From: Bacteroidaceae bacterium
GTDB taxonomy: Bacteria > Bacteroidota > Bacteroidia > Bacteroidales > Bacteroidaceae
Assembly: GCA_016280445.1 (NCBI GenBank)
Contig: JAEEGS010000021.1
Coordinates: 1-48,578 of the forward strand
Reading direction: 5' to 3'
DNA: 48,578 bases
Made by a program: the position numbers and the translations under genes. Positions 7,488 through 30,943 of this stretch are shown here, piece after piece. Every line of letters starts with the position of its first letter. Within the stretch, counting starts at the first letter, position 1. The notes under the pieces are model-generated. The model was not told the DNA's origin, made no database searches, and saw only the letters and a list, made by a program, of their open reading frames with translations.

Positions 7488-10020
7488 ATTCAAAACCATA
7501 TCATCTATGATGAAGCGTGAAGGCTGCGGCCTTTGTGTTATGACGGCACTGATGCTGCTGGCACTCAACTCCTGTACCGACAGCACGACCGAAACGAAGG
7601 TTGCGGGGAATTTCATCATCACCGAAGTGATGCCTGCCAACCATACCGGATTGCTCGCTGAAGATGGCGAGTTGTACGATTGGATTGAGGTGGAGAACAT
7701 CTCGGCCGAAGCAACATCGCTCAAGGATTACTCGCTGGCTTTTGCGAAGAATGGAAAGAAAAGCAGCAAGAAGAGTGAGAAGAAAAGCGATGAGAAAGGA
7801 GATGAGAAAGATGACGAGAAAAGTGACGAAGAAGAGGCTCCAAAGGTCAAGACCTGGGAGTTTCCCGATGTAGAGGTGAAACCTGGTGAGCGCATCATCG
7901 TGTTCGCATCAAAGAAAGCCGCTGACACAGAGGGCAAGGCACAACAAAAAGAACTGCATGCCAGTTTCAAACTGTCTGCTTCGGGAGGAACATTGAAGTT
8001 GCTGAGAGATGGTGGTGTGGTGTCGGAGGTGTGCTACGGCCCGTTGGACGACGATATGTGCTACCGCCTCAATGCCGACAGCATCTTCGAAGCCAGTTAT
8101 GAGCAGACACCTGGGTTTGAAAACACCAACGAGGGATTTGAGTCCTACTGCACCTTGATGGAACAGCAGCGCAAGGATGCCGCCCTGAAGATATGGGAAG
8201 TGCACTCCAAGGGACACAAGAAAGGAAGGGCTTGGATTGAAGTGAAGAACGTGTCGGATCAACCTGTCGATTTGGAAGACTACCGACTCACCACCAGCAA
8301 GAAGAAAGCACCCAAGTGGAACTTCCCTGCCGTGCAGATTCAACCAGGCGCGCGGTTCGTGATGGATTGCCGGAAAGAGGATTTCAAGATAGGCAGCACC
8401 AAATCGGTCGTGCTCACCAAGAAGAACAAGTTTGTGGATGGTGTATGCCCTGCTGCTACCCCTTATGGCGTGTCGACAGGTCGAGTGGAGGGGAAGGACG
8501 GTTTCTTCTATTTCGCATCGCCCACACGCAATGCTGAGAACAAAACCACATCCTACCGCCACATTGCTCAGCAACCCTCGTTCAATCCCACACCCAACGT
8601 CTATTCGGGCAGGGAGAGTATGAATGTGTGCCTCGCCACCTACGGATACACTGTCCACTACACCACCGACGGCAGTATGCCCACGGCGGCATCTCCTGTC
8701 TATACAGATTCCATCACCATCAAGAAGACCACCACCATCCGTGCATTCTGCGAGGGCGACTCCACCACTATGCGCAGCAACACTGCAACCGCCACATTCA
8801 TTTTCGCAAAGGAGCACACCCTGCCTGTGATGAACATCACCGTGCCGGAAGCCGACCTCTACGACTTCAATCGGGGCATCTATATGGCAGGTCCTGGTGC
8901 ATCGCCCGAATACCCCCATCAGGGTGCCAACTACTGGAAGCCGTGGTGGAAGAGAGCCCATGTGGAGTTCTTCGACAGCATCAACGGCGGTTTCTCTGCC
9001 GGTTGCGAGATGGCCATTTTCGGAGGTTTCTCGCGAGCCCTCGCCAAGAAGTCGTTCAAGATACGCTTCAGAGACGATTGCGGCCCTGCACACCTCGACT
9101 ACGACCTCTACAACGAGGGGAAGGTGGAGGAAGTGAAAAACTTCGTCCTTCGTTCTGGTTCGCAAGACATATCGGGGGTGATGGTGCGCGATGAGTTCTT
9201 CACCAGCCTAATGAAACAACACAGCCCCACCCTGCTCATTCAGGCCTACCGACCTGTGGCACTCTACATCAACGGCGAATACTTCGGTCTCTACTACCTG
9301 CGCGAGAAAATCGACAAGCGTTTTGTGGCTCGACACCTCGATGTTTCTACCGACTCCATCTCCATCATTATGTCGGGCATGTACTGCGAGGAAGGAACCA
9401 AGAAGGACTTTACGGATATCATGACATACGCATCGACCCACAATCTGGCCGACAAGGAATGTTACGAATACGTGAAAAAACGCGTTGACCTCACGGGACT
9501 TATCGACTTCAAATTGGGACAGATGTATTCCAGCAACACCGACTTAGGAAATGTGCGTTACGTGCTATCCAAAGACCCCAAGGGTGACCAGAAATGGCAC
9601 ATCGTCTTCTACGACCTCGATGCCACATGGGCAACCAACTGCACTTCAGCCTCGTATTTCCTCGTCAGTGGCGACAACCGGGTGAAGCGGATTCAGAACC
9701 AGTTGGTGCAGGAACTCCTGAAGAATCAGGAATTCCGCCAACTCCTTCTGCAACGGCTTTCTCTCCACATGCACAAGACGTTCTCCACCAAGAACACAAC
9801 GGCTGTCTTCGATGACCTCATCAACACCATCAAGCCCGAGATGCAGCGCAACTGCCAACGATGGCCAGCCATACTCACCTACCCGAGATGGGAGAACCGT
9901 GTGAAGGAATTCCGCGAGAAATTCAAGGAGAGAAACAAAATTATGCTCGACGACCTGCGTCAGTATCTCAACGTCACCGAGGAGGAAGAGAAGAAATATT
10001 TCTCCGACCTCGGATATTGA
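7474..10020 (+). CDS. CotH kinase family lipoprotein with lamin-tail and chitobiase C-terminal domains
   Basis: A large surface or periplasmic lipoprotein (lipobox LALNSC, Cys34). Domains are: lamin-tail domain (about 45-200) interrupted by a Lys/Ser/Asp/Glu-rich low-complexity stretch at 92-124; a second lamin-tail-like domain (about 235-345); a CHB_HEX_C-type beta domain with VHYTTDGSMPT (about 370-445); and the CotH domain from about 450, with FGGFSRALAKKSFKIRF, ALYINGEYFGLYYLREKID and HIVFYDLDATWA. CotH proteins are atypical protein kinases. The start may instead be the Met at 7510, which gives a compact 22-residue lipoprotein signal and no overlap. The gene shares an operon with the phosphatase at 6288, suggesting opposed phosphorylation of surface proteins. 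The substrate is unknown. Confidence 0.87.
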   Translation: MFKNKFKTISSMMKREGCGLCVMTALMLLALNSCTDSTTETKVAGNFIITEVMPANHTGLLAEDGELYDWIEVENISAEATSLKDYSLAFAKNGKKSSKKSEKKSDEKGDEKDDEKSDEEEAPKVKTWEFPDVEVKPGERIIVFASKKAADTEGKAQQKELHASFKLSASGGTLKLLRDGGVVSEVCYGPLDDDMCYRLNADSIFEASYEQTPGFENTNEGFESYCTLMEQQRKDAALKIWEVHSKGHKKGRAWIEVKNVSDQPVDLEDYRLTTSKKKAPKWNFPAVQIQPGARFVMDCRKEDFKIGSTKSVVLTKKNKFVDGVCPAATPYGVSTGRVEGKDGFFYFASPTRNAENKTTSYRHIAQQPSFNPTPNVYSGRESMNVCLATYGYTVHYTTDGSMPTAASPVYTDSITIKKTTTIRAFCEGDSTTMRSNTATATFIFAKEHTLPVMNITVPEADLYDFNRGIYMAGPGASPEYPHQGANYWKPWWKRAHVEFFDSINGGFSAGCEMAIFGGFSRALAKKSFKIRFRDDCGPAHLDYDLYNEGKVEEVKNFVLRSGSQDISGVMVRDEFFTSLMKQHSPTLLIQAYRPVALYINGEYFGLYYLREKIDKRFVARHLDVSTDSISIIMSGMYCEEGTKKDFTDIMTYASTHNLADKECYEYVKKRVDLTGLIDFKLGQMYSSNTDLGNVRYVLSKDPKGDQKWHIVFYDLDATWATNCTSASYFLVSGDNRVKRIQNQLVQELLKNQEFRQLLLQRLSLHMHKTFSTKNTTAVFDDLINTIKPEMQRNCQRWPAILTYPRWENRVKEFREKFKERNKIMLDDLRQYLNVTEEEEKKYFSDLGY

Positions 10021-10062
10021 AACAAAGCGTTTTTCCGACCTCGGATATTGAAACAAAGCGTT
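10001..10062 (+). repeat. 31-bp duplication across the CotH stop codon
   Basis: CCGACCTCGGATATTGAAAC recurs 31 bp downstream (10004 and 10035). A third, more diverged copy follows from about 10063. The second copy lies after the stop and is not translated. Confidence 0.85.
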
Positions 10063-10093
10063 TCTCTGACTTCGAACATTGAGAAAGAAACAC

Positions 10094-10128
10094 AAAAAAA
10101 CTCCTGCCAATCAGCAGGAGTTTTTTTT
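10094..10128. terminator. Bidirectional terminator
   Basis: CTCCTGC / GCAGGAG (10101-10107 with 10114-10120) is flanked by seven A on the left and eight T on the right. It serves both the CotH gene and the convergent gene at 10149. Confidence 0.88.
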
Positions 10129-10148
10129 GTTCTCGATGTGTGATGTTA

Positions 10149-10583
10149 TCACAAAGAAGCAGTAGCAGTGTAATTTCTCATGACACGACGGTAGTAACCC
10201 TCTGTACGCGCTTTGCGCTGCATGCACTTCAGGTCGCCAGAGTTCCAAAGACGGATGGCTTTCTCCATGTTGCCTTCTGGATTATAACGCTCCTGATAAG
10301 TGATGAACATGTCAATACTCTTCTGCTTGTCATAACGGTCGGCATAGGTGAACTTCTTGTACCCGACGATTCTGTTACACTCGCGCACCAAAATTTGCGC
10401 AATCTGCAGATAACCCACATAAAGTCCGTTCTTCGATACTGCCTTAGCATTACCTCTGCTTTCCACTTGTGCGATAGCGAGGATAACGGCTCCCCACTTT
10501 TTCTCGAGGTCAACTTTTGGTTCTGTCTGTGCAGTAGCACTCAACGAAATGGCCATCACGGCTAATAGCAATAATTTTTTCAT
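10149..10583 (-). CDS. Small secreted lysozyme/transglycosylase-like protein
   Basis: A 144-residue exported protein: signal peptide MKKLLLLAVMAISLSATAQ, then a compact helical domain. ILAIAQVESRGNAKAVS, with the Glu of the SLT-type ES motif, GYLQIAQILVRECNRI, TYADRYDKQKSIDMF and AIRLWNSG match the small goose-type or SLT lysozyme fold found in many Bacteroidales secreted proteins. Peptidoglycan cleavage is therefore likely but not proven: the domain is shorter than standard Slt domains. It has its own strong promoter (10693-10724) with a leader of about 100 nt, and a shared terminator behind it. Confidence 0.72.
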   Translation of the reverse strand: MKKLLLLAVMAISLSATAQTEPKVDLEKKWGAVILAIAQVESRGNAKAVSKNGLYVGYLQIAQILVRECNRIVGYKKFTYADRYDKQKSIDMFITYQERYNPEGNMEKAIRLWNSGDLKCMQRKARTEGYYRRVMRNYTATASL

Positions 10584-10692
10584 ACAATTCTTACTTTTTA
10601 AATTTCCGCTACGATTCTATAGTCGCAGCTCTGGTTCTTTCAAACAAGTCTTTACGAGACCTTTTGGCTTCGTTTTCCAACGAAAACCACTG

Positions 10693-10724
10693 CAAAGGTA
10701 TGGCTATTTTTTGAATTTGCCAAA
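10693..10724 (-). promoter_or_regulatory. Promoter of the lysozyme-like gene
   Basis: Minus-strand TTTG (10721-10724), 20 bp, TACCTTTG (10693-10700). Confidence 0.8.
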
Positions 10725-10730
10725 GAAAAT

Positions 10731-10782
10731 ATGCTAAAAAACATATTTTTATGTATAAAAACACGTTTTTAGCATATTTTTA
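10731..10782 (-). terminator. AT-rich hairpin after the C10 protease gene
   Basis: ATGCTAAAAA (10731-10740) pairs with TTTTTAGCAT (10766-10775). Lying 13 bp after the protease stop and just upstream of the next promoter, it is a plausible terminator. Confidence 0.45.
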
Positions 10783-10794
10783 GATTTCCGGAGA

Positions 10795-13700
10795 CTATTT
10801 CACACGCTTCTCGCCATCAATGATATAGATGCCTGGTTGAGTGGCTGAAGGCACGCGAACACCTTGCAAAGTGTAGATGCCCTTACGTACACCGGTTCGC
10901 ACTTCTGGCAGATTTTCGATGCCAGTTGCAGGGTCTTCCGACTCCTCCAACATACCCACATAGGTGAGCGTGAAATCGTCCACTTTATACCAGCGGCCTT
11001 CCTTCACACCGATGGTGAGCGAACCCGTTGCTTCACCTTCGTCGGCTGTCACCTTGATGTTGTCGATGACTGCCTGTGTGAGGTAGAGAGGACCGAACGG
11101 ATGTCCTGCAACAGTTGCAGTAGCCTCATCGGCAAACATCGTGACAGAAGATTTCTCATCGGTTCCCAACATCGCGGTAAGACGGTAGTAGCCAGGAGTA
11201 AGTCCCTTGACCACCTGCGAGATGCTGACGGATGAAGAGTCGTCGGCGGCAATCAGGCTTCGGTAGTAATAGATGCCATCAAGCCCTACGGCACGTTTGT
11301 CGTTGGCGGCAGTGCCATCATTCACTGACCCGACAGACGTGAAGCCTTCCTTCTTTGCGACCGTCCATCCACGAGGAGAAGTCTTGGATTGTTCGAAAGA
11401 CGGGTTGACGATGCTGCTGGTGAAGTCAATCTCCTTGTTGTCGAGATGGGCAATCTGTTTCATGTAGGTTTCGCCATCGGCAATCAACTGGGCAGCATAT
11501 TCTTTCACCAAGCTGATCGTGTTGAGCGTCGAACCATCTCCACGATTAGAGAATTCCTTCTCGGCAAACGCGATTTCCTGTTCGTAGGCATCGTATGCTG
11601 ATGCTTGAGCGATGTCCTTGTATTTTGCCAACATCTGACGTGCCTCGTTGATGCTTTGAGCCAGAGTGACGAATGGAGGATCCTGTGTCACGCTTGGGTA
11701 GGCGCGCACATCACTTGGCGTGTCGCTGGCATTCCAATATCCCCTCAAGGCTTCCACTACACTACCTTCCTGCACCACCACGAAATTCTGTTTCTCCTCA
11801 GCATTGAGCAGATGCGCCTTCGCTGGGGTTGTGGTGTTGGTGTAAGTGCCGATGAGCGCATTATCGGTATTATCCACAGGAGAGGCCACGACAGTCACAT
11901 TTTCGCCCGTCAAGGTCATGTTGCCGACTGATGAAGCCATCACCAGATAGGTCTTTCCTGCCTCCAGCGTCTTGACATCGGCCGTGCGAACAGATGTGCT
12001 TAGGTGTTCCGTGATGTCGCGGGCAATGATGCCATCAGGAACGGTTGCGACAAAAGGTGTGGTGATGAGATACCAACGTGCGGGTTCAACCGCCAAGTTC
12101 AGTTCTGCCTTCTCGGCAATGAAATCCTCGCGTGGCGTGAAGTTATACCCTGAGACAAGCGAGAGTTCTTTGCAGCGGCCATCGCACACCACGTTCTTTC
12201 CTGTCGCCTGACTGCCAGCGGCCACATAGACAAGGGCGTTGGGGTTCACCGACTGAGTGACTTCGCCCACCCCTGTACATTGTGTCAAATCATACACGGT
12301 GGCGGTGTTGTATCTCTTGCTTGCAGAAATCGAGGAGGATTTGAACACCGTAGCGTCGAAGTGTCCCTGCACGGTCAGGCAGTTATCCTCGAAACTCACC
12401 ACCGATATATCCTTCTTCTGGGGGGTGAAATAGATGTCGCTGTTCTCTGCTTCGTCAAAACTGATGGGGTCTTTCGACAGTTGGGTTGTGTTGAGCACCT
12501 GCAGTTTGTAGTGCTTACCCTCCACCAGCGGACGTGAAGCGGTGCTGAACACCGTCACCACGGCATCGGCTTCCTCGTTTGCATTCACAGTCAGCGAACC
12601 CGTGTAGGTGGCACCAGTGAGCACCCAAGCCTGAGCCACTTCGTCGTATTCCGACAACTCCATCACCAGTGTGCCTCCGTATGGTGCAGCAGCCTTATTC
12701 TCCACTGTCACGTTCACAGGAACCTGGGTGTTGTAAACAAGATGGCACGTCTGTCCATCAAAGGTTTCCGTGTCGCTGCCGTTCGTCATCGTGACCTTCT
12801 TCAGCGAGAGTGCCGTTTCGCCCTTTTCGGGTGTGAACGATATCTGTGCCAACACGTTGAGGTCAGCATCAGTCAGCGTGGCATAGGTGACCCTGTCACT
12901 TGCTGTCGGCTTGCCTTTCAGCGTGATTTCCTTCACACTGCCTGTGCTGAAGACGGTTTCCGTGTCGCTCGATTGGGCATTTTGCAGTTTCGAGGGCTTT
13001 GTTTTCGAGGTGGACACGAAGAGATAAACACCGCTGAAGTCGAGCGTAGAGTTGTTAGCCACTTTCACCGTAAAGTCATTCTCCACATTGCTATACACAT
13101 GCGTAGAATGAGTGATGGTGGCTGTGCGGTTCCAAGTCTTCGGATAGGCACCAATCAGGGCACTCTGCCCATCGTAGAAACCATTCATGCCGTCGGTTGT
13201 AGTGGTCGTGTAGTAGCCATCGGCTTGACCACCCCATCCGAAGTTGAAGTAAAACTTGTCGTCGGAAGCACGATAGCCATGAATGAATACAGCATGTCCA
13301 CCCTGATCGGGATGAACACCCGTGTACATGACTGGATGTCCTGCCGCCAATTCTTTATAAAGCAGGTTTGTCCAACCCTCCTGTCCATAACTGGCACGAT
13401 AATGCACTGTGCCGCCATTCATGCCGAAATAGGTGGAGAACGTATAAGGAATCTTTTCGATATTGCCAGAGGTCGACTCTCCGTAGGTGAGCCATGTGGC
13501 TGCTCCTGTAGCAAAGACGAACTCAGCAACGGGTTGCTTGTAATCTGCCGATTGCGACCCATAGGAGTCGAGCATCAAATCCCACTTGAGGGGTGTTCCC
13601 TTGGGCACACTACGAGTGACGGGGGCATCGCCGTAACCATAAGTCGGTGTGGTTGCCTGAAGGGTTGAAGGGAGGTCTTTGCGCCAGTAGTAGAGAATCT

Positions 13701-14241
13701 GGCTGGCAGCGGTGGCCACACAACCCGTCACCGCCCTGTTTCCATTCTTGGTAAGCGTGGGGCAATTGTCGTTGTAGGGGCTTGACTGGTGCCAATGCGA
13801 GGTGACGAACGGAGGGATGTCCACCCGTGTGGTGGAAGCACGTTGTGCTCTCCTTGTCCTGGCCATCGCCACATTGGAGCCATCTGCCTGTGCCAGTTCC
13901 ACGATTTTCTGCCAACCGTCCAGCATGTCGAGCAATGCAGGAGGCATGTTGTTGGGGTCGAAATCGCCCTGTTCTGCCACACCCAGCACTTCGGGCAGGC
14001 AATCGTCGCCACTCACGATGACGAAGCCTTGATTGGCACCTCGGCTGATGATGTAGTAAGGGGCATATTCGCTGGATACGGATGACCTCCGTTTGGCTTG
14101 TGCCTGAGTGACGATAGACATTTGATGTCCAGGCAACATATACTCCTGTGCTATCTGCAATGCCTCTGTGCGGCTGATGGGGTCGGCATTGATGCCCAAA
14201 GCAGAGAACAACGCCAATGTTGAAACAAGTAACTTTTTCAT
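10795..14241 (-). CDS. Secreted C10-family cysteine protease (streptopain type) with large C-terminal region
   Basis: A 1148-residue exported protease. The signal peptide is MKKLLVSTLALFSALGINA. A Spi/propeptide-like segment (20-115) with PYYIISRGANQGFVIVSGDD precedes the papain-like C10 domain: catalytic Cys174 in AVTGCVATAASQILYYW, His316 in GGHAVFIHGY, and FNFGWGG (333-339). Residues 370-1060 are beta-rich repeats without a clear name, probably adhesion or substrate binding. The end (IYTLQGVRVPSATQPGIYII, then GEKRVK) is the LQG...GIY tail common in secreted Prevotella proteins. The ATG at 14241 is chosen over an upstream TTG. No promoter box is seen in the 73 bp behind lepA, so readthrough from lepA is possible. 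Confidence 0.9.
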   Translation of the reverse strand: MKKLLVSTLALFSALGINADPISRTEALQIAQEYMLPGHQMSIVTQAQAKRRSSVSSEYAPYYIISRGANQGFVIVSGDDCLPEVLGVAEQGDFDPNNMPPALLDMLDGWQKIVELAQADGSNVAMARTRRAQRASTTRVDIPPFVTSHWHQSSPYNDNCPTLTKNGNRAVTGCVATAASQILYYWRKDLPSTLQATTPTYGYGDAPVTRSVPKGTPLKWDLMLDSYGSQSADYKQPVAEFVFATGAATWLTYGESTSGNIEKIPYTFSTYFGMNGGTVHYRASYGQEGWTNLLYKELAAGHPVMYTGVHPDQGGHAVFIHGYRASDDKFYFNFGWGGQADGYYTTTTTDGMNGFYDGQSALIGAYPKTWNRTATITHSTHVYSNVENDFTVKVANNSTLDFSGVYLFVSTSKTKPSKLQNAQSSDTETVFSTGSVKEITLKGKPTASDRVTYATLTDADLNVLAQISFTPEKGETALSLKKVTMTNGSDTETFDGQTCHLVYNTQVPVNVTVENKAAAPYGGTLVMELSEYDEVAQAWVLTGATYTGSLTVNANEEADAVVTVFSTASRPLVEGKHYKLQVLNTTQLSKDPISFDEAENSDIYFTPQKKDISVVSFEDNCLTVQGHFDATVFKSSSISASKRYNTATVYDLTQCTGVGEVTQSVNPNALVYVAAGSQATGKNVVCDGRCKELSLVSGYNFTPREDFIAEKAELNLAVEPARWYLITTPFVATVPDGIIARDITEHLSTSVRTADVKTLEAGKTYLVMASSVGNMTLTGENVTVVASPVDNTDNALIGTYTNTTTPAKAHLLNAEEKQNFVVVQEGSVVEALRGYWNASDTPSDVRAYPSVTQDPPFVTLAQSINEARQMLAKYKDIAQASAYDAYEQEIAFAEKEFSNRGDGSTLNTISLVKEYAAQLIADGETYMKQIAHLDNKEIDFTSSIVNPSFEQSKTSPRGWTVAKKEGFTSVGSVNDGTAANDKRAVGLDGIYYYRSLIAADDSSSVSISQVVKGLTPGYYRLTAMLGTDEKSSVTMFADEATATVAGHPFGPLYLTQAVIDNIKVTADEGEATGSLTIGVKEGRWYKVDDFTLTYVGMLEESEDPATGIENLPEVRTGVRKGIYTLQGVRVPSATQPGIYIIDGEKRVK

Positions 14242-14314
14242 TGTCAATAGGTATGTATTAGTTAATTAGATTCTTAGTTTGAGTGATTCATTCGTTGTTG
14301 GATGGGGGGCCGCA

Positions 14315-16123
14315 TCAATCGTCATCGAGTTTCAGCACAGCCAAGAAGGCTTTCTGCGGCACACTCACGTTGCCGATTTGCTTCATGCGCTTCTTGCCTC
14401 GCTTCTGCTTTTCGAGGAGTTTGCGCTTACGCGAAACGTCGCCTCCGTAGCACTTGGCCAACACATCCTTTCGTACCTGCTTCACCGTCTCTCTTGCCAC
14501 AATCTTGCCACCGATGGCTGCCTGGATGGCGATGTCGAACTGCTGACGAGGCAGCAACTCTTTCAGGCGTTCGCACATGCGGCGACCGAGGGTGACAGCA
14601 TTATCGACATGAGTCAGCGTGGAGAGTGCATCGACCGATTCGCCGTTCAGCAGAATGTCGAGTTTCACCAACTTGCTTTCGCGGAAACCTGCAGGATGAT
14701 AGTCGAAGGAAGCGTATCCACGCGACACACTCTTCAATTTGTCGTAGAAGTCTATCACTATCTCGCCCAGAGGCATCAAGAACTCAATCTCCACACGGTT
14801 GCCGGCAATGAAGTCCTGCTTCACCAGTTCGGCTCGCTTGCCGAGACAGAGCGTCATGATGGGGCCGATGTAGGTGGCCGTGGTGATGACGGTGGCACGG
14901 ATGTAGGGTTCCTCCACATGGTCAATCAGGGTCGGGTCAGGCATGCCGCTGGGATTGTGCACCTCTTGTGCCTCTCCGTGCTTGTCGTACACCATGTAAC
15001 TCACGTTCGGCACCGTGGTGATGACATCCATATCGAACTCGCGGTCGAGGCGTTCCTGCACAATCTCCATGTGGAGCAAGCCGAGGAATCCGCATCGGAA
15101 ACCGAATCCCAGTGCTGCCGAACTCTCGTGCTGGAAGGTGAGCGAGGCATCGTTCAGTTGCAGTTTCTCCAGCGAGGTGCGCAGGTTCTCGTAGTCTTCC
15201 GTCTCAATGGGGTAGATGCCTGCAAACACCATCGGTTTCACCTCTTGGAATCCCTTGATGGCCTCGGTGGTGGGGCGTGACAGCGACGTGATGGTGTCGC
15301 CCACTTTTACCTCGGTGGCGTTCTTGATGCCCGTCACGATGTATCCCACATCGCCTGTACGCAGTTCCTTCTTGGGCACCATATCCATTTTCAGCGTACC
15401 GATTTCCTCGGCCAGATATTCTTTCTTCGTGTTGATGAACCGCACCTTCTCGCCCGGGTGCATCACGCCGTTGATGATTTTGAAGTAGGCAATCACACCG
15501 CGGTAGGAGTTGAACACCGAGTCGAAAATAAGTGCCTGCAAGGGAGCATCCTCTTCACCTACTGGATGGGGAACTCTTTCCACCACCGCATTCAGTATCT
15601 CCCCCACTCCTTCGCCTGTCTTGCCGCTGGCGTAGATGATGTCCTCCAAGTCGCAACCTATCAGGTCGATAATCTCGTCGGCCACCTCTTCGGGCATCGC
15701 GTTGGGCATATCAATCTTGTTGATGACGGGAATGATTTCGAGGTCGTGGTCGATAGCCATGTAGAGGTTCGAGATGGTCTGTGCCTGCACACCCTGTGTG
15801 GCATCCACCACGAGCAGGGCACCCTCGCATGCCGCAATCGAACGGCTCACCTCGTAGGAGAAGTCCACGTGTCCCGGTGTGTCAATCAAGTTCAGCACAA
15901 ACTTTTGTCCCTGATACTCCGCTTTCTCCCCGTCATATTCATGCTCCATCTGGATGGCGTGACTCTTGATGGTGATTCCACGCTCCTGCTCCAAATCCAT
16001 GTCGTCCAGCATCTGACCCTGCGTAATCTCAATCGTCTTCGTGCGCTCCAGCAATCTGTCTGCCAGCGTCGACTTCCCGTGGTCAATATGTGCGATAATG
16101 CAAAAATTCCTGATATTCTTCAT
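14315..16123 (-). CDS. lepA: Elongation factor 4 (back-translocating GTPase LepA)
   Basis: LepA is a translational GTPase that acts on the ribosome at translocation or initiation and assembly. The product has 602 residues. G motifs are AHIDHGKST (near residue 9), DTPGHVDF and NKIDMPNA; later come [12 protein letters not shown]-type EF-G domain V and the LepA-specific C-terminal domain ending [13 protein letters not shown]. The start at 16123 matches the family ([16 protein letters not shown]). The frame stays open upstream but is not LepA-like there. The leader appears long: the nearest promoter box is TATCTTTG at 16355-16362, with a 23-bp tandem repeat between. Confidence 0.97.
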
Positions 16124-24585: not shown

Positions 24586-25326
24586 TCAAACATATTGAAT
24601 ACGGAAATAGTCAAGACTGGCTTTGAACTGGTCTTGTGCTATTAGGCAGGTGTCAGTAAGATAGCCGTTGAGGTGTCCCCACTCACGCAAGCCACGATAG
24701 TAAAACATCTTCAGTTCGTCGGTGATAATGAAAGGGACAACACCGCTACGCAAACATTCTTTGAATATCACAAGACGCCCAATACGCCCGTTCCCATCTT
24801 GGAATGGGTGAATCTTCTCGAAACGGACATGAAAATCGAGGATGTCTTCCAATGTATGCACTTCTTTGGCATTGCAATCCCTGATGAGTCGTTGCATGCT
24901 GTCGTGAACCAACTCTGGCTCACACGTCTTTTCACCGCCAACTTCATTAGGAAGACGCTTGTAGTCACCCACAGCAAACCAATCCTTGCCGCTATCCGAA
25001 GTACCTGCCTTCAGGATGCCGTGCAGCGTCTTTATCAAGTCTTCCGAAAGCGGCTCTTGAGCCCTGTCAATGATCATGTCAATACAACGAAAGTGATTCA
25101 CCGTCTCAACAATGTCATTCACATTCACAGTCTCTTCCGCAGTCACTCCAATGGTGTTCGTTTCGAAGATGTATCGTGTCTGTTCGTGCGTCAGACGGCT
25201 ACCTTCCATATGATTCGAGTTGTAAGTTAGGTCTATCTGCGTTTTGTGATAGATACCTCCCTTCATCTTCATTTCTTTTTGCTCGCGGAGTGCTGCGAGC
25301 AATGGAGTTATATTGTTTGCCATCAT
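24586..25326 (-). CDS. Fic domain protein (self-inhibited class)
   Basis: A 246-residue Fic enzyme. Fic proteins transfer AMP or other nucleotide parts to target hydroxyls. The active-site loop HPFQDGNGRIGR (173-184) matches HxFx(D/E)GNGRxxR completely. The inhibitory helix motif (S/T)xxxE(G/N) is present upstream as SNHMEG (37-42), so autoinhibition comes from the same chain and the protein may not need a separate antitoxin. It has its own promoter (TTG, 20 bp, TAACTTTG, 25346-25376), which overlaps the end of the preceding Bro-N-Fic gene. It is the island gene closest to rarA. Confidence 0.9.
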   Translation of the reverse strand: MMANNITPLLAALREQKEMKMKGGIYHKTQIDLTYNSNHMEGSRLTHEQTRYIFETNTIGVTAEETVNVNDIVETVNHFRCIDMIIDRAQEPLSEDLIKTLHGILKAGTSDSGKDWFAVGDYKRLPNEVGGEKTCEPELVHDSMQRLIRDCNAKEVHTLEDILDFHVRFEKIHPFQDGNGRIGRLVIFKECLRSGVVPFIITDELKMFYYRGLREWGHLNGYLTDTCLIAQDQFKASLDYFRIQYV

Positions 25327-25345
25327 TCCTGTTTCTATTTTTGTG

Positions 25346-25376
25346 CAAAGTTAATCATTTTATTTGTCTTCCACAA
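25346..25376 (-). promoter_or_regulatory. Promoter of the self-inhibited fic gene
   Basis: Minus-strand TTG (25374-25376), 20 bp, TAACTTTG (25346-25353), about 20 bp before the ATG. Confidence 0.7.
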
Positions 25377-26259
25377 CCTCTGCACCATCTTCTTGCTCAT
25401 AATAATAGGAATAGTCGATGCCCTTCATGAACAGCTCGCGGTCGTCAATGCGGTCAGTCAGGGCATGTTGGAGCAAATGCTTGATGGCGTTGGCATCAGT
25501 CACACTTCTGCGCATCGCTTCAAGGTACTCCTTCTTGTCTATCTTGCTCCAATCCACACACATCTTCAAACGTTTCTTAAACATCAAATCAAGCCAGATG
25601 CGTGTAGAGCGTCCATTTCCCTCCATGAAGGGATGAGCCACATTCATCTCCACATACTTGTTGACAATCTCCTCGAAAGTATTCTCTGGCATCTGCTCAA
25701 TAGCATTTAGATTTCTTGGCAGCAATTCCGCACGACAGAACAGCGTACCATCTTTCCAAATCGTCTTTGTCCGTATCTGACCTGCAAAGTCATAAAGCCC
25801 ACCAAAGAGGTAGGCATGTATCTGTTGCAGAGCCTTTACCGTCCCAGGTTCCATGCTGTCAAGTATTCCACTCTCTATCAGAGTATATGCCTTCTTCTTG
25901 CTCTGTCCGTCAATACTATTGTCGCTATAAACAAACCAGTCGAGGAAGGCAGTTGCACGATGATTGGGATAGTGCTTCGCCAGCGTCTGCACACACTCCG
26001 CATCCAGCGTATCAGCCACACGTTGCTTGCCATCAGGAGCCTCAAATTTGAAGTCGTGAGTGATGCTCACGAGTTGAACGCCATTAGCCTTGAGTTTCTT
26101 TTTCAACCATCGCCAATAGTTACCCGCTTTCACATAGTCATCTTCGTCATTGATGGCACGCACAATGTCTGTAGCCGAGAACCACCACTTGCTGTGTTCC
26201 TCGTCCCATACGGCTCGTACCTCATAGTCCTTATAGAAACGAATAGACTGTTTACTCAT
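25360..26259 (-). CDS. Bro-N / Fic fusion protein
   Basis: A 299-residue two-domain protein. Residues 1-110 resemble the Bro-N (viral/phage DNA-binding) domain: YEVRAVWDEEHSKWWFSATD, NYWRWLKKKLKANG, then ADTLDAECVQTLAKHYP. Residues 125-260 form a Doc-like Fic domain with LFGGLYDFAGQIRTKTI and the full active loop HPFMEGNGRSTR (209-220). No (S/T)xxxE(G/N) inhibitory helix is evident, unlike the neighbouring Fic. It starts five bp after the rhuM stop, so the two form a pair. RhuM or the Bro-N domain may control activity. Phage sensing or toxin function is inference. Confidence 0.83.
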   Translation of the reverse strand: MSKQSIRFYKDYEVRAVWDEEHSKWWFSATDIVRAINDEDDYVKAGNYWRWLKKKLKANGVQLVSITHDFKFEAPDGKQRVADTLDAECVQTLAKHYPNHRATAFLDWFVYSDNSIDGQSKKKAYTLIESGILDSMEPGTVKALQQIHAYLFGGLYDFAGQIRTKTIWKDGTLFCRAELLPRNLNAIEQMPENTFEEIVNKYVEMNVAHPFMEGNGRSTRIWLDLMFKKRLKMCVDWSKIDKKEYLEAMRRSVTDANAIKHLLQHALTDRIDDRELFMKGIDYSYYYEQEDGAEVVEDK

Positions 26260-26264
26260 ATTTC

Positions 26265-27269
26265 CTACCGTTTTGTATCACTCAGTTTCTTTTGTTCCCT
26301 CTCAAATTGCTCCAAGAAATGAATCTCAACAGGTGTCAGTTCATTGTTCGTCCGCTCCTTGAACTTGTCGTATTCGGCATCAGCCTTCGCTTTTGCCAGT
26401 TGTGCAGAGACACGTCCTGCGTGGGTCAGAATGTCTTTCCGGGAGATACGCAAGAAATCATCGAGAATGGCAATCCAGTCTTTCATATACATAGGACGAT
26501 GCTCCTCTGCTTGAAGTTCCGCAAAATCGAGATACAGGCTGACAATACGATTTAGCGTCGTTATTTCTTCCTGCGATAGATAGTTCTTAGCAATCTCTGC
26601 GTCCGTTTTCTTGGGCAGAGCACCAGTCCATGTAGTTAACCCCATAAAATCCTTCTGTGCATCAGCCCGTTCATAGATAATCTCTGCTGCCGTATGCCCA
26701 TGCACAGAATAATGCATCTTGTTCTGCACCGTTTTGAAGAACTCCTGCGTCATCTCCACACGTGGGTCATAGTCAATGCTAAGTGCATAGATTTCAAGCA
26801 CCTTCCTATAGAACACCTTCTCCGAAGAACGGATGTCGCGGATGCGAGCCAACAGCTCATCGAAATAGTTTCCACCACCAGCTCGCTTCAGCAGGTCATC
26901 GTTCAGAGCAAACCCCTTCACGATATATTCTTTCAGCACACCCGTTGCCCACATACGGAACTGCACACCACGATAGGAATGTACACGATAGCCCACGCTG
27001 ATAATCATATCGAGGTTGAAGTACTCTACATTATAATTTTTACCATCTCGGGCAGTTGTTGCAAAAAACGCAACAACTGAATGTTCGTCCAGTTCTCCCT
27101 CCTCAAACACATTCTTAATATGCCTTGATATGGTGGATTTATTGCGTTGAAACAACTCCGCCATCTGGTCAAGGTTGAGCCACACCGTCTCACCTTGCAA
27201 CCTCACCTCAATACGAGAATCCCCATCAGGAGTTTGATATAACAATATTTGTCCTTTATCTTCGTTCAT
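26265..27269 (-). CDS. rhuM: RhuM family protein
   Basis: A 334-residue RhuM-family protein, first named in a Salmonella pathogenicity island and often found beside Fic/Doc genes. Visible: QILLYQTPDGDSRIEVRLQG, a helix-turn-helix-like LDQMAELFQRNKSTISRHI (DNA binding), VVAFFATTARDGKNYNVEYF, GYRVHSYRGVQFRMWATGVL, and a helical C-terminal half. The ATG at 27269 is preferred. It lies about 17 nt after TACCTTTG (27287-27294), so the leader is very short. The upstream in-frame ATG at 27299 would precede the promoter. It is followed five bp later by the Bro-N-Fic gene, so RhuM may be its regulator or partner. Confidence 0.87.
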   Translation of the reverse strand: MNEDKGQILLYQTPDGDSRIEVRLQGETVWLNLDQMAELFQRNKSTISRHIKNVFEEGELDEHSVVAFFATTARDGKNYNVEYFNLDMIISVGYRVHSYRGVQFRMWATGVLKEYIVKGFALNDDLLKRAGGGNYFDELLARIRDIRSSEKVFYRKVLEIYALSIDYDPRVEMTQEFFKTVQNKMHYSVHGHTAAEIIYERADAQKDFMGLTTWTGALPKKTDAEIAKNYLSQEEITTLNRIVSLYLDFAELQAEEHRPMYMKDWIAILDDFLRISRKDILTHAGRVSAQLAKAKADAEYDKFKERTNNELTPVEIHFLEQFEREQKKLSDTKR

Positions 27270-27286
27270 AATTCTCCTATTTTTTG

Positions 27287-27294
27287 CAAAGGTA
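27287..27294 (-). promoter_or_regulatory. -7 box of the rhuM-fic pair
   Basis: Minus-strand TACCTTTG, 17 nt ahead of the rhuM ATG. There is no clear -33 TTTG. Confidence 0.6.
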
Positions 27295-27390
27295 ATCAAC
27301 TATTTTCATTTTCGACACTCCCTGATTCAATATTGTTTATGACTGCTATCACATTTGACTGTAAGTCAGCAATAATCTCATCCTTCAGAC

Positions 27391-27927
27391 TTAAAGCATG
27401 TAAATATTTTCTTCATTAAGACCTTGATTCATTTCTATATTAGTATGAACAATATCTATAGCTAATTGCAAAGAACGTACTTTACGTCTAACGATATCGC
27501 TTTTGCCGAAATCAAAATAATTGAAATCAGTATCAAGGAATCGTTTCAGATACTCAGATGCATAAGACCTAACTTTCCCCCGATCCTCCTTCAAATACTT
27601 ATTATCAAAATACTGGTTCATGACTTGGCAAAATGACTCAATAGCTTGTCTCTTCAATTGTATGAGCAGTAAGTCCTTCTGAGCTTTTACCTCAGCTTTC
27701 GAACGATTTTCATTTATCCTTGAAATAGCTATTGTTAATTCAACTAAGATAACGATATTGATAATTGCCAACAATGGCATCAGCAATCCATTGATATATG
27801 TACCAAAGTCGCTCCAATCCTTTGCTTGGCAACTAAAATCTCCATGGAAATTCCCAAAATAGAAACCGATGACTAAGGTCGTACATAAGGCTATTGCTAA
27901 ATAGATAATTATTTTAAATCGTTTCAT
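27391..27927 (-). CDS. Two-TM membrane protein with coiled coil, abortive-infection-like
   Basis: A 178-residue protein with one N-terminal membrane helix (about 5-24), a short loop, a second helix (about 47-68), then a long charged helical region. The loop and second helix read DWSDFGTYINGLLMPLLAII, a pattern (FGxYxxGxxxPxL) I associate with putAbiC-type membrane proteins of phage-defence loci. That assignment is by eye and tentative. The protein is shorter than full putAbiC members and could be truncated. Codons are AT-rich compared with the rarA side. The promoter TTTG-N19-TAACTTTG is at 27969-27999. It lies between the rhuM-fic pair and the CRISPR array. Confidence 0.6.
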   Translation of the reverse strand: MKRFKIIIYLAIALCTTLVIGFYFGNFHGDFSCQAKDWSDFGTYINGLLMPLLAIINIVILVELTIAISRINENRSKAEVKAQKDLLLIQLKRQAIESFCQVMNQYFDNKYLKEDRGKVRSYASEYLKRFLDTDFNYFDFGKSDIVRRKVRSLQLAIDIVHTNIEMNQGLNEENIYML

Positions 27928-27999: not shown

Positions 28000-28099
28000 C
28001 AAACTCCTTCATCCAACTTTTAGGAAGGGATATTGCATAGGCACTAGGATTACCTTTCTTGAATTCACCTCTCGAAGTATATTTCTTTTCTCTATTCAC
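27986..28099 (-). pseudogene. Short AbrB/MazE-like remnant next to the CRISPR array
   Basis: Thirty-seven codons from a GTG give a product containing KKGNPSAYAISLPKSWMKEF. This looks like the swapped-hairpin DNA-binding domain of SpoVT/AbrB-type antitoxins (pattern xGNSxAxxLPKxWxxxxG), but it stops right after that core. It begins inside the degenerate terminal CRISPR repeat and overlaps the promoter of the two-TM gene. It is probably a decayed antitoxin or regulator gene; chance coding cannot be excluded. Confidence 0.35.
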
Positions 28100-28514
28100 A
28101 AGCAGAGGTTAACCACAACTTTAATGATTGCCTTGATCTCCGGCACGCTCTTGTATCTACCATCTTTATTGGGGTTAACCACAACACAAGACGGGTGAAG
28201 CATCATTCACCTGACCTTGTATCTACCATCATTATTGGGGTTAACCACAACACGCCAGAAGGAATACTATTTTGGTCTATCTTGTATCTACCATCATTAT
28301 TGGGGTTAACCACAACTATGAAGGAGAGTTAAAGTAACCAGAAGGTCTTGTATCTACCATCATTATTGGGGTTAACCACAACAACGACAGATGAACGAGT
28401 ACGAGATGCTTCCTTGTATCTACCATCATTATTGGGGTTAACCACAACTTTTGTATCCAAATACTTGCATATCTTTTGCTTGTATCTACCATCATTATTG
28501 GGGTTAACCACAAC
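28084..28514 (-). CRISPR. CRISPR array: six 36-bp repeats plus one degenerate repeat, six spacers
   Basis: Repeats start at 28150, 28216, 28281, 28347, 28413 and 28479, each 36 bp. On the plus strand they begin CTTGTATCTACCATC and end GGGGTTAACCACAAC. The repeat at 28150 has one substitution (CTTTATT for CATTATT). A seventh copy at 28084-28119 keeps only its last 13 bp. Such decay marks the leader-distal end, so the array is transcribed on the minus strand, like the nuclease gene to its right. Spacers are at 28120-28149, 28186-28215, 28252-28280, 28317-28346, 28383-28412 and 28449-28478 (30, 30, 29, 30, 30, 30 bp), and all differ. The repeat ends are partly complementary (TTGT/ACAA). No Cas1 or Cas2 gene is in the window. 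Confidence 0.96.
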
Positions 28515-28701
28515 AATTTCCTGACAATATATTAGTCATCAAGAGGATGGCATCCATTTGGTACTTTCAGAACTTGCGCTATACTCTCACGAACGAATCC
28601 GCTACCTGTTATTTTGCATTTCTGATTCCCATTTGATATTAGCAGCCAACGCTCCTACGAGCGATTAACGACTGCAAGGCTTTACAACACCTTATTATCT
28701 T
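28515..28701 (-). other. Spacer between nuclease gene and array: possible leader or guide scaffold RNA
   Basis: A 187-bp stretch with no gene and no TAnnTTTG box. On the minus strand it contains a stem-loop with outer GCAG/CTGC pairs and inner CGCTC-GTAG-GAGCG (28642-28675), and a small GGATG/CATCC stem nearer the array. I found no stretch clearly complementary to the repeat, so a classical tracrRNA is not shown. A leader or an omega-RNA-like scaffold is possible. Confidence 0.4.
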
Positions 28702-30309
28702 TTATTTGAATGCGCCTATTGTTGTGCGCTCATTTTTCTTTTTCCCTTGCAAATATAAATCCATTTCTTCCCGTTCCAAACGACAGAAGGTTGGATAATC
28801 TTTCTGCATGGTTGCAACATCATAGTCTTTCGTTGAGTTGCCATCAGCGTTGAGGTGTTGTAGGTTAAATGCTGCCAACAAATCTCGCTGATGCTTATCA
28901 CCATTTGACAAGGCTATCACTCTCTCTCCTAATCCGTGCTCTGTGAACTCTCCATTGGTGAAATCAAACCTGCTGGCTGCATTTTTCACCTCCACTTTTC
29001 GGAATTCTCCTCCTAACGATTCCACCTTATTCTGCAAGATGGTTGCAAACATCGAAGGTGCATGATTCGCCACAGACTTTCCGAATCTCTTTTTGCTTTG
29101 AATCTTGCCTTTCTTGTTGATTTTGGTCTCTTTGCTCTTTCGTGTCCAACTACTAACAGGGTTGTTCTCCACAATGAAGGTGTCACCTAATGGCAGCAAG
29201 GCATTGGCAGTCTCAATGTGTTGTGCCTTACGAATGGCTGCCTGCTTGCGCAACAATTCCTTTCGTTCTTCACGGAGTTTCTTGTATCGTTTGGAATCGT
29301 GCCATACTCTACGTTCTCCGCTTTTGCGAGAAATGGGCTTGATTGTCCCATCTTCGTTGAAATTCTGCGGATTATTGGCTCTTCGGCTTCTATCCATTTT
29401 TCTACTAACACGATTCAAGTTTCTTTGTATGTCGTCACACTTATTAGCAAGTTTGTCAATGGATACTTTTTGAAGAGACGATACAGCAATAGTGGATGGA
29501 CCCAAATCAATACCCACACATCCTTCTCCCAAAGTCCTTCCCTTCTGTGGTTTTTCACCTTCAATCGTCATCTGCAAATAGTATTTGTTGTTGCCACGTA
29601 TCTGCTTTCTGACCACATTCAATATTTTAATGCTATCAAAGCCACTCTTCAAAGCGTACATTTCATATTCAGTCAACGGCTTCCCTGTCCCGATAGGCAA
29701 AGTGATGTATTTTGCAAATTGACCATTTCTACCATTGGTCTTGATAACCAATTCCATCGTATCAAGATGAATGGCCATTCCTATAAAACTAATATTGTTT
29801 TTCTTTCTGCTTCCAAACGTATTCAGTTCACCATATTTCTTAAATGCCACTCTTTTAGCATCTCTATCATAGAGGAACTTGTTCCATGCTGACCACATGC
29901 TGCTTGCAAGTCTTTCAAGCATGAATGAGTTTATGCCTAAATCCGCATACGTTTTGTTCGCTCCAGCAGGCAATTTCCCCAACTTGGAGATGTAACCATT
30001 GAAACCATCCAATTTGGCCCCATTGCTTTCGCTCATGGAATAAGGGAATTTGATGGCAAAGGGTTCTCCATTCCGACCTACCACCTCATTGTAATAGAAG
30101 GGATGATTTCTGAAAAACTCCCTTTTATCCCTATATGTAGTACATTGTCTGAACTCATTCATCTGCTCAAAATACTTGTATTGACGAATGAGTTTCTTTT
30201 GTACATAATTATAGATTTGGCGAAGATACTCGTATCGCTTGTCGAGAATATCTGCTTGCCATTTCTCGACCTTCAAAGGAAGCTCCAATACGAATGTCTC
30301 TTGTGCCAT
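28702..30309 (-). CDS. Compact TnpB/Cas12-like RuvC nuclease (candidate type V CRISPR effector)
   Basis: A 535-residue protein with a split RuvC nuclease: GIDLG with Asp268 (RuvC-I), FIVENN with Glu381 (RuvC-II) and HQRDLLAAFNL with Asp476 (RuvC-III). An Arg/Lys-rich helical stretch (290-365) lies between I and II, as in TnpB and small Cas12 proteins. Residues 1-250 form the recognition and wedge part. The segment where TnpB carries a CxxC...CxxC zinc ribbon (about 440-475) has no cysteine; it reads NAASRFDFTNGEFTEHGLGE instead. The size is near Cas12f. It has its own promoter (30338-30367). A 36-bp-repeat CRISPR array lies 187 bp behind on the same strand. No TnpA or transposon ends are seen. 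RNA-guided DNA cleavage is inferred. A free TnpB with a chance neighbour array is the alternative. Confidence 0.82.
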   Translation of the reverse strand: MAQETFVLELPLKVEKWQADILDKRYEYLRQIYNYVQKKLIRQYKYFEQMNEFRQCTTYRDKREFFRNHPFYYNEVVGRNGEPFAIKFPYSMSESNGAKLDGFNGYISKLGKLPAGANKTYADLGINSFMLERLASSMWSAWNKFLYDRDAKRVAFKKYGELNTFGSRKKNNISFIGMAIHLDTMELVIKTNGRNGQFAKYITLPIGTGKPLTEYEMYALKSGFDSIKILNVVRKQIRGNNKYYLQMTIEGEKPQKGRTLGEGCVGIDLGPSTIAVSSLQKVSIDKLANKCDDIQRNLNRVSRKMDRSRRANNPQNFNEDGTIKPISRKSGERRVWHDSKRYKKLREERKELLRKQAAIRKAQHIETANALLPLGDTFIVENNPVSSWTRKSKETKINKKGKIQSKKRFGKSVANHAPSMFATILQNKVESLGGEFRKVEVKNAASRFDFTNGEFTEHGLGERVIALSNGDKHQRDLLAAFNLQHLNADGNSTKDYDVATMQKDYPTFCRLEREEMDLYLQGKKKNERTTIGAFK

Positions 30310-30337: not shown

Positions 30338-30367
30338 CAAAGTTACGAATAACTATGCATTCCACAA
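30338..30367 (-). promoter_or_regulatory. Promoter of the Cas12-like gene
   Basis: Minus-strand TTG (30365-30367), 19 bp, TAACTTTG (30338-30345), about 28 bp before the ATG. Confidence 0.75.
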
Positions 30368-30404
30368 AATAAGAGAAGTTTTTTCTTGGCTTCTTCTGAG
30401 AAAC

Positions 30405-30499: not shown

Positions 30500-30943
30500 T
30501 TAGAGGTCAACCTCATATGCATCACATTCGAGGGGCACAGACACGCCGTTCTCCTGCAGCAGCGCATCAATCTCCGCCTTCCGTTCGGGCGAGATGCGCA
30601 ACACCCCTGAGCGGTAGCGCCCGTACTGGGTGCGGCTGTTGAAATACGCCTGCAACACAGCATAAGCAGCCTTCGCCTCCTTGTAGGAAAGAAGGTCGAA
30701 ATATTTCTCGAAGCCAACCCCATAAATGGTGCCAAACGAATCCTTGAAGAACTGGCACTTGTCGCCTTCCATCGCGATGGCATCAGGATTCACCATCTGC
30801 ACGGTTTCCAAACTCTTGCTGCACTTCCTGCGCACAATCTGGCGCAGACACACTTCAGCCGACGGGCAGTCAGCACGCATACATTGCACCACCTTCTTCT
30901 GAAGTTTCTCGATATTCATTGTTGGTTTTTCCATATCACTCAT
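30500..30943 (-). CDS. DUF6078 family protein
   Basis: A 147-residue soluble protein that I place in DUF6078, a Bacteroidales family of unknown role. It has a cysteine pattern CMRADCPSAEVCLRQ followed by RRKCSKSLETVQMVNP, and CQFFKDSFGTIYGVGFEKYF. YRSGVLRISPERKAEIDALL follows in the C-terminal third. The four early cysteines could bind metal. The start could also be the Met at codon 4 or 9. The promoter is at 30960-30990. Before the island came in, rarA probably followed this gene in one operon. Confidence 0.75.
   Translation of the reverse strand: MSDMEKPTMNIEKLQKKVVQCMRADCPSAEVCLRQIVRRKCSKSLETVQMVNPDAIAMEGDKCQFFKDSFGTIYGVGFEKYFDLLSYKEAKAAYAVLQAYFNSRTQYGRYRSGVLRISPERKAEIDALLQENGVSVPLECDAYEVDL

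Follow-up and report, generated by a model that had tools for sequence, protein, structure and literature searches.

The window analysed here, a 48,578-nucleotide stretch of DNA from a Prevotella-like gut bacterium of the Bacteroidaceae, very probably encodes a three-component CRISPR system of class 2, type V (V-U-like), in minimal form: a RuvC nuclease derived from TnpB, a CRISPR array and a scaffold RNA. We propose it, with a function predicted from its sequence, as a candidate V-U-like type V subtype of the Prevotella group and, probably, a minimal anti-phage immune system. An earlier sequence-only reading had described a two-part system, a TnpB-derived compact effector paired with an array in Bacteroidales. 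Our analyses support this V-U-like pairing and both parts are real, but the gap between them holds a third one that had been missed, a conserved structured RNA resembling a trans-activating CRISPR RNA (tracrRNA).

Effector gene and array as a recurrent unit

On the minus strand of the window, the effector gene (30309-28702) is followed by an intergenic stretch of 187 nt (28515-28701) and by the array (28514-28150), which comprises six 36-nt repeats, five identical and one with a single mismatch, separated by spacers of 29-30 nt. A truncated seventh, terminal repeat on the same strand (28107-28119; 13 matching nt) lies in register, starting at 28119, exactly one period on, after a 30-nt spacer. 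A search of the own genome allowing up to three mismatches recovered only these six repeats (the reversed-pattern control gave 0). The array, including its decayed last repeat, stands as first described, and its repeat is not that of any cas operon identified in the rest of the genome. The effector gene has a single match there. Upstream of it, TTTG-N19-TAACTTTG (30338-30368, minus strand) is a candidate promoter read from the sequence by its likeness to the Bacteroidetes consensus.

The effector, of 535 aa (28702-30309, minus strand), is a single RuvC-domain protein of the TnpB/Cas12 fold, as expected for type V of class 2. Its size, its strand, its distance of 187 bp from the array and its RuvC residues D268, E381 and D476 had been read correctly; the three residues are invariant columns in a 20-row alignment, and a motif scan found D, E and D in every array-bearing effector scanned. 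The description of the nuclease as cysteine-free holds for the zinc-ribbon segment, without any cysteine between RuvC-II GKS and QRD, but not for the protein, which contains four. Members of the family measure about 490-610 aa, and the ratio of non-synonymous to synonymous substitution rates (dN/dS) is ~0.05 against the 95% identical relative at locus L017. Profile matches to the family are partial (PADLOC) or below cut-off (NCBIfam, with guided_TnpB at 70.7 bits against the effector for a cut-off of 100; Pfam Cas12f1-like_TNB, E 0.11, under its cut-off), and a sequence search of PDB chains gave chance matches only; the structural families considered were those on the VIA list.

A scan of GTDB genome contigs yielded 22 loci encoding effector relatives (L017-L038). 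An array with the same ~66-nt period adjoins the gene in 19 of them (L017-L035). L036 and L037 each yielded two repeats at a distance of about 6 kb from the gene, one copy being cut by the contig end in L036. L038, from Erysipelotrichaceae (30-31% identity), has no array; its gene is the tnpB of an IS605 element, and tnpA lies directly upstream. Because gene and repeats recur together in 21 of 22 loci, a chance array beside a gene is ruled out. The association is evolutionarily stable and holds in a related genus too, where repeats lie beside the gene in nine of the ten locus-bearing genomes, the array-less one being L096/L100; some of these ten duplicate genomes of the GTDB scan, judged by sequence, and L103 and L108 show only two repeat copies within the DNA examined. 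Among 139 spacers from 25 loci, 107 measure 30 nt and 28 measure 29 nt, and 39 of the 41 repeats of L023 are perfect. The system is rare: it turned up in 8 of 399 genomes sampled from its family, a count that takes in the own genome, a remnant and an array-less relative, in 10 of 200 in the related genus and, in a class-wide scan of 395 sampled genomes, the own genome plus one weak partial match, with no effector relative confirmed in viral contigs. It was seen here only in the Prevotella group and apparently has a single origin.

As in V-U systems, the TnpB-like effector and its array lie at loci where no cas1, cas2 or cas4 was found. A tblastn search of 31 family loci, the window included (396,542 bases, each locus spanning 3.7 to 48.6 kb), for TnpA (four queries), Cas1 and Cas2 (two each) and Cas4 (one) gave no match, in line with the earlier claim for the window, and it did recover the control loci; the Cas controls are query sources or close copies, and a divergent Cas1 could be missed. 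The same TnpA queries find six IS605 loci. Close homologues without arrays and flanked by IS200/605 ends would have refuted the earlier reading; instead, repeats accompany almost all close homologues, and tnpA was found next to none of them. A Pfam search of the whole own genome for Cas1 gave one match only, on a contig other than the window's. It belongs to a type II locus, which we read as II-C-like and which also holds Cas2, a partial Cas9-like open reading frame (ORF; Pfam RuvC_III, 1.1e-16) and 47-nt repeats of different sequence. Of seven related genomes, five gave a Cas1 match, in one case to a fragment interrupted by a stop, and none was found in G113 and G187. A conserved Cas1 partner was rejected, since the genomes differ: type II here, Cas1-Cas2-Cas4-Cas3 with a different repeat in G141, and Cas1-Cas2-Cas4 in G302.

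The scaffold RNA and a proposed guide mechanism

The tracrRNA-like scaffold (28515-28697, minus strand) lies directly upstream of the array, and its nhmmer profile matches the window at 28694-28479 on the minus strand (6.7e-41; the window is one of the training rows). Wherever the sequence of an array-bearing locus extends far enough, the RNA and the array are directly adjacent. The contigs of L019 and L032 begin within the RNA, and the L027 copy diverges in its 5' portion. Three arrangements occur: gene, RNA and array in this order (window, L017, L018); RNA overlapping the 3' end of a longer effector ORF, followed by the array (L012, L013, L107); and RNA, array and gene (L011, L019-L035). In many loci of the last group the RNA is preceded by a promoter-like TAnnTTTG. 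The scaffold side would be the leader end of the window array, since decayed last repeats sit at the opposite array end in most loci.

The scaffold is identified as tracrRNA-like because it carries an anti-repeat whose sequence corresponds to, and co-varies with, the 3' half of the repeat. In the window this is TGCCATC (28546-28552, minus strand; position read from the sequence), which can pair with GATGGTA, present in all six repeats. Repeat and anti-repeat read ATGGTA/TGCCAT in the window, GTGGTA/TGCCAC in L018, AGGTCA/TGACTT in L022, AAGCCA/TGGCTT in L035, CAGCCA/TGGCTG in L036 and GGGGTA/TACCCC in L109. Overall, 70 of 72 anti-repeat pairs are formed (12 haplotypes, 24 loci) and none of 100,000 re-pairings was as good; an automatic parse of 29 loci, three misplaced rows kept, gave 79 of 90 pairs and again none of 100,000 as good. 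A second helix, the outer stem of stem-loop H2 (28642-28675, minus strand, GCAGTCGTTAAT..TTGGCTGC), was counted over 11 haplotypes and forms 54 of 55 pairs, a score that none of 100,000 shuffles equalled, both helices being counted in hand-set alignment columns. RNAalifold over the whole alignment gave a poor consensus because the strands are offset between clades in the alignments, and an Rfam search with the scaffold RNA returned no meaningful match.

Viral matches come from the spacers of relatives. Six spacers, two of them the window's own, were searched in IMG/VR with 25-27 nt of each, and three matched: that of L017 exactly in L062 and L063 and with one mismatch in L061 and L064, that of L021 exactly in L066, and that of L032 in L065 with two mismatches near the 3' end. 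The L066 protospacer lies within an ORF matching a tail-fibre PHROG, the L061 contig codes for a DNA primase, and the 193-aa ORF over the L065 site had no PHROG match.

These observations are consistent with the following mechanism. In the window, effector, scaffold and array would be transcribed together. The scaffold would fold onto the effector in the way that omegaRNA folds onto TnpB, and the anti-repeat would capture each repeat, producing a dual guide; the first unit (scaffold, repeat 1 and spacer 1) could also serve in cis as a natural single guide. The CRISPR RNA (crRNA) would be matured by RNase III or by the effector, and its ~30-nt spacer would steer RuvC cleavage of phage DNA next to a 5' protospacer adjacent motif (PAM). 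Spacers would be provided in trans by Cas1-Cas2 of the cell's other CRISPR systems, here the type II, II-C-like locus. The steps are not equally secure. The protein is very probably an array-guided CRISPR effector, and the gap RNA very likely works as its tracrRNA, a crRNA/tracrRNA guidance that the anti-repeat covariation supports indirectly; active DNA cleavage is likely, and adaptation in trans has about an even chance.

Probable descent from IS200/IS605 TnpB and comparison with type V systems

The nearest array-less relatives of the effector are IS200/IS605 TnpBs, 27-35% identical in full-length alignment and sharing the RuvC D-E-D and an NNPxNFNEDGT-like motif. They come from Erysipelotrichaceae (L038), Geobacillus virus E3 (L052), a Clostridioides phage (L053), Cetobacterium (L054), Mycoplasmatota (L055), Pontibacillus (L056), Acidithiobacillus (L057) and Finegoldia (L058), mostly Bacillota and their phages, found in the Erysipelotrichaceae genome and otherwise on phages and plasmids. 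Unlike the 31 family loci, six of these eight have tnpA directly upstream (L038, L052, L055, L056, L057 and L058, whereas L053 and L054 lack an annotated one), a hairpin-like IS605-type right end of 32-42 nt is present in 8 of 10 parsed flanks, and they have no array. A right-end pattern matched no locus among 25 of the family, and only three of five positive controls. The zinc-ribbon cysteine pair is absent in seven of the eight, L057 retaining CxC..CxC. The absence noted earlier in the effector is thus real, but because array-less IS605 TnpBs share it, the loss precedes the array and, as the aligned sequences read, is inherited and no result of CRISPR association.

In a maximum-likelihood tree with long branches flagged, a branch with 100/100 support separates 24 array-bearing effectors from 16 array-less TnpBs. 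When L108, L109 and L096 are added, the array-bearing L108 and L109 branch first and the array-less L096 falls inside the next clade, which requires two state changes; one gain and one loss of the array would be the simplest reading. The repeat of L108 and L109, which are 34% identical to L096, reads GGTGTTTATCACCTTAA..GGGGTAAATACA, and their 6-nt anti-repeat is perfect, with a complementarity that by eye reaches 11 nt in L109. The L096 relative (8516-9994, in G233; 40% identity) keeps the start of the scaffold (nhmmer E 6.8e-4). It also has one repeat-like end, ATAAGGTAATGACAAG, and the TACCTT in front of this end lies a single base away from the fixed offset of the 29-locus parse. This relative may represent a single-guide state, reached by reduction or kept by ancestry, and on the rooted tree reduction appears likelier than an ancestor.

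The scaffold RNA probably descends from a transposon omegaRNA. Across 66 loci, the two-part H2 pattern TGCAGTCGTTAAT-N(10-24)-TTGGCTGCNAATAT, written after seeing the L056 match, recovered the copies of the window itself and, as its only other match, a site just after tnpB in the Pontibacillus IS605 element L056; L017 and L018 deviate from it by at least one base. Blind sequence searches for the scaffold in eight IS605 flanks gave weak signals (best nhmmer E 0.034), and the Smith-Waterman score was reached by 7 of 500 shuffles for L056 and 8 of 500 for L038, not significant after eight tests, which leaves scaffold homology with the L056 RNA suggestive. It is possible, but rather doubtful, that a single family records, state by state, how a transposon omegaRNA became a CRISPR tracrRNA. 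The series would run from TnpB with an H2-motif RNA (L056), through scaffold-like RNA with one repeat-like end (L096), scaffold overlapping the ORF (L012, L013, L107) and scaffold after the stop (window, L017, L018), to scaffold and array upstream of the gene (L011, L019-L035). The system offers a CRISPR subtype candidate with nameable transposon relatives for its protein and perhaps for its guide RNA, in which the splitting of omegaRNA into tracrRNA and repeat is testable by part swaps between relatives, as well as a compact effector family without zinc ribbon from rumen and gut bacteria.

Among known type V effectors, Cas12f (V-F) differs by its zinc-binding TNB domain, whose zinc-ribbon cysteines are absent here, and PADLOC Cas12f models match some plain IS605 TnpBs equally well or better. 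LaTranC, present in the PDB, was compared as the representative of type V-U/TranC-like systems, and no sequence match to it was found at E up to 10. Cas12m (V-M) shares a small single effector, and its systems are not known to carry adaptation genes; it differs by an inactivated RuvC site, the three residues being intact here. Cas12m protects via binding, not cutting, according to PMC11013384, and PMC12669027 gives about 50 inferred TnpB-to-CRISPR events, the unassigned ones named V-U.

Alternative readings and neighbouring genes

The strongest competing account is that the system is real but not new, belonging to a type V clade already catalogued, as an Altae-Tran 2023 event, a Tordoff 2025 variant or a TranC clade. 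The number of events just cited, which V-U collects, and the existence of TranC structures in the PDB favour it, and we give it somewhat less than an even chance: the PDB sequence matches do not exceed chance, NCBIfam and PADLOC matches are sub-threshold or partial, and the titles and abstracts of the literature searched, a set that did not include Altae-Tran 2023 and Tordoff 2025, hold no Prevotella case. The effector might instead bind without cutting, as a roadblock or in transcription control, like Cas12m or TnpB-derived repressors. Cleavage has been lost repeatedly among type V effectors, as PMC12669027 also states, but the conserved catalytic triad of all array-bearing effectors scanned and the three spacers matching viral contigs (host promoters were not searched) make this unlikely. 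It is less likely still that the scaffold is a mere omegaRNA using spacer 1 in cis with the rest of the array passive, as its contact with repeat 1 and the array-less L096 with its scaffold-like RNA might suggest; the near-perfect array of L023 and the anti-repeat partner in all six window repeats speak otherwise. Least credible is an immobile IS605 TnpB remnant that merely happens to neighbour an orphan array working for the type II system of the host: its nearest array-less relatives are indeed IS605 TnpBs and the genome does hold Cas1, Cas2 and a Cas9 RuvC_III domain, but gene and repeats recur across loci, the anti-repeat covariation is cognate and no tnpA was found in the family. The window array was rejected as the array of that type II system, whose 47-nt repeat differs.

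Several results weigh against the three-part type V system that we prefer. The re-pairing and shuffle tests ignore the kinship of the rows, the minimum free energy z-score of the window scaffold with its first repeat is just -1.84, and the AlphaFold2 model of the effector is poor (predicted local distance difference test, pLDDT, 68.7; predicted template modelling score, pTM, 0.48). The earlier proposal to search phages and plasmids for spacer targets bore fruit for the relatives but not for the window, whose own spacers had no target in IMG/VR (two), in INPHARED (two) or, beyond the array itself, in 45 genomes of the genus (two); the L031 spacer had no IMG/VR match either, and the flanks of the three protospacers (..GGTTCA, ..GTTGCC, ..GTGCCC) show no common PAM. 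L096 is array-less, L034 has an early stop and L097 is a remnant of about 56 aa, its effector (9600-9860, in G113) being reduced to the first ~56 codons.

The window array has defence-island-like neighbours at 24586-27927: two Fic proteins (one PADLOC PDC-S04), RhuM (PDC-S05) and a 178-aa membrane protein adjoining the array, a relative of which sits just downstream of the effector in L106. This protein was rejected as a conserved accessory part, being related in just that one other searched locus, and so were the RhuM and Fic genes, present at few loci. Upstream of the effector, a DUF6078 protein (30500-30943; Pfam 6.4e-26) has a distant relative near L013. In L037, at about 8000-15950, between effector and scaffold/array, lie a 1234-aa DdmD-like helicase (PADLOC DdmD, E 9.1e-28) and, on the same strand and in the DdmE position, a 744-aa protein with no Pfam or PADLOC match; L036 starts with the same arrangement, and this DdmDE-like plasmid-defence pair possibly makes these two loci composite defence operons.
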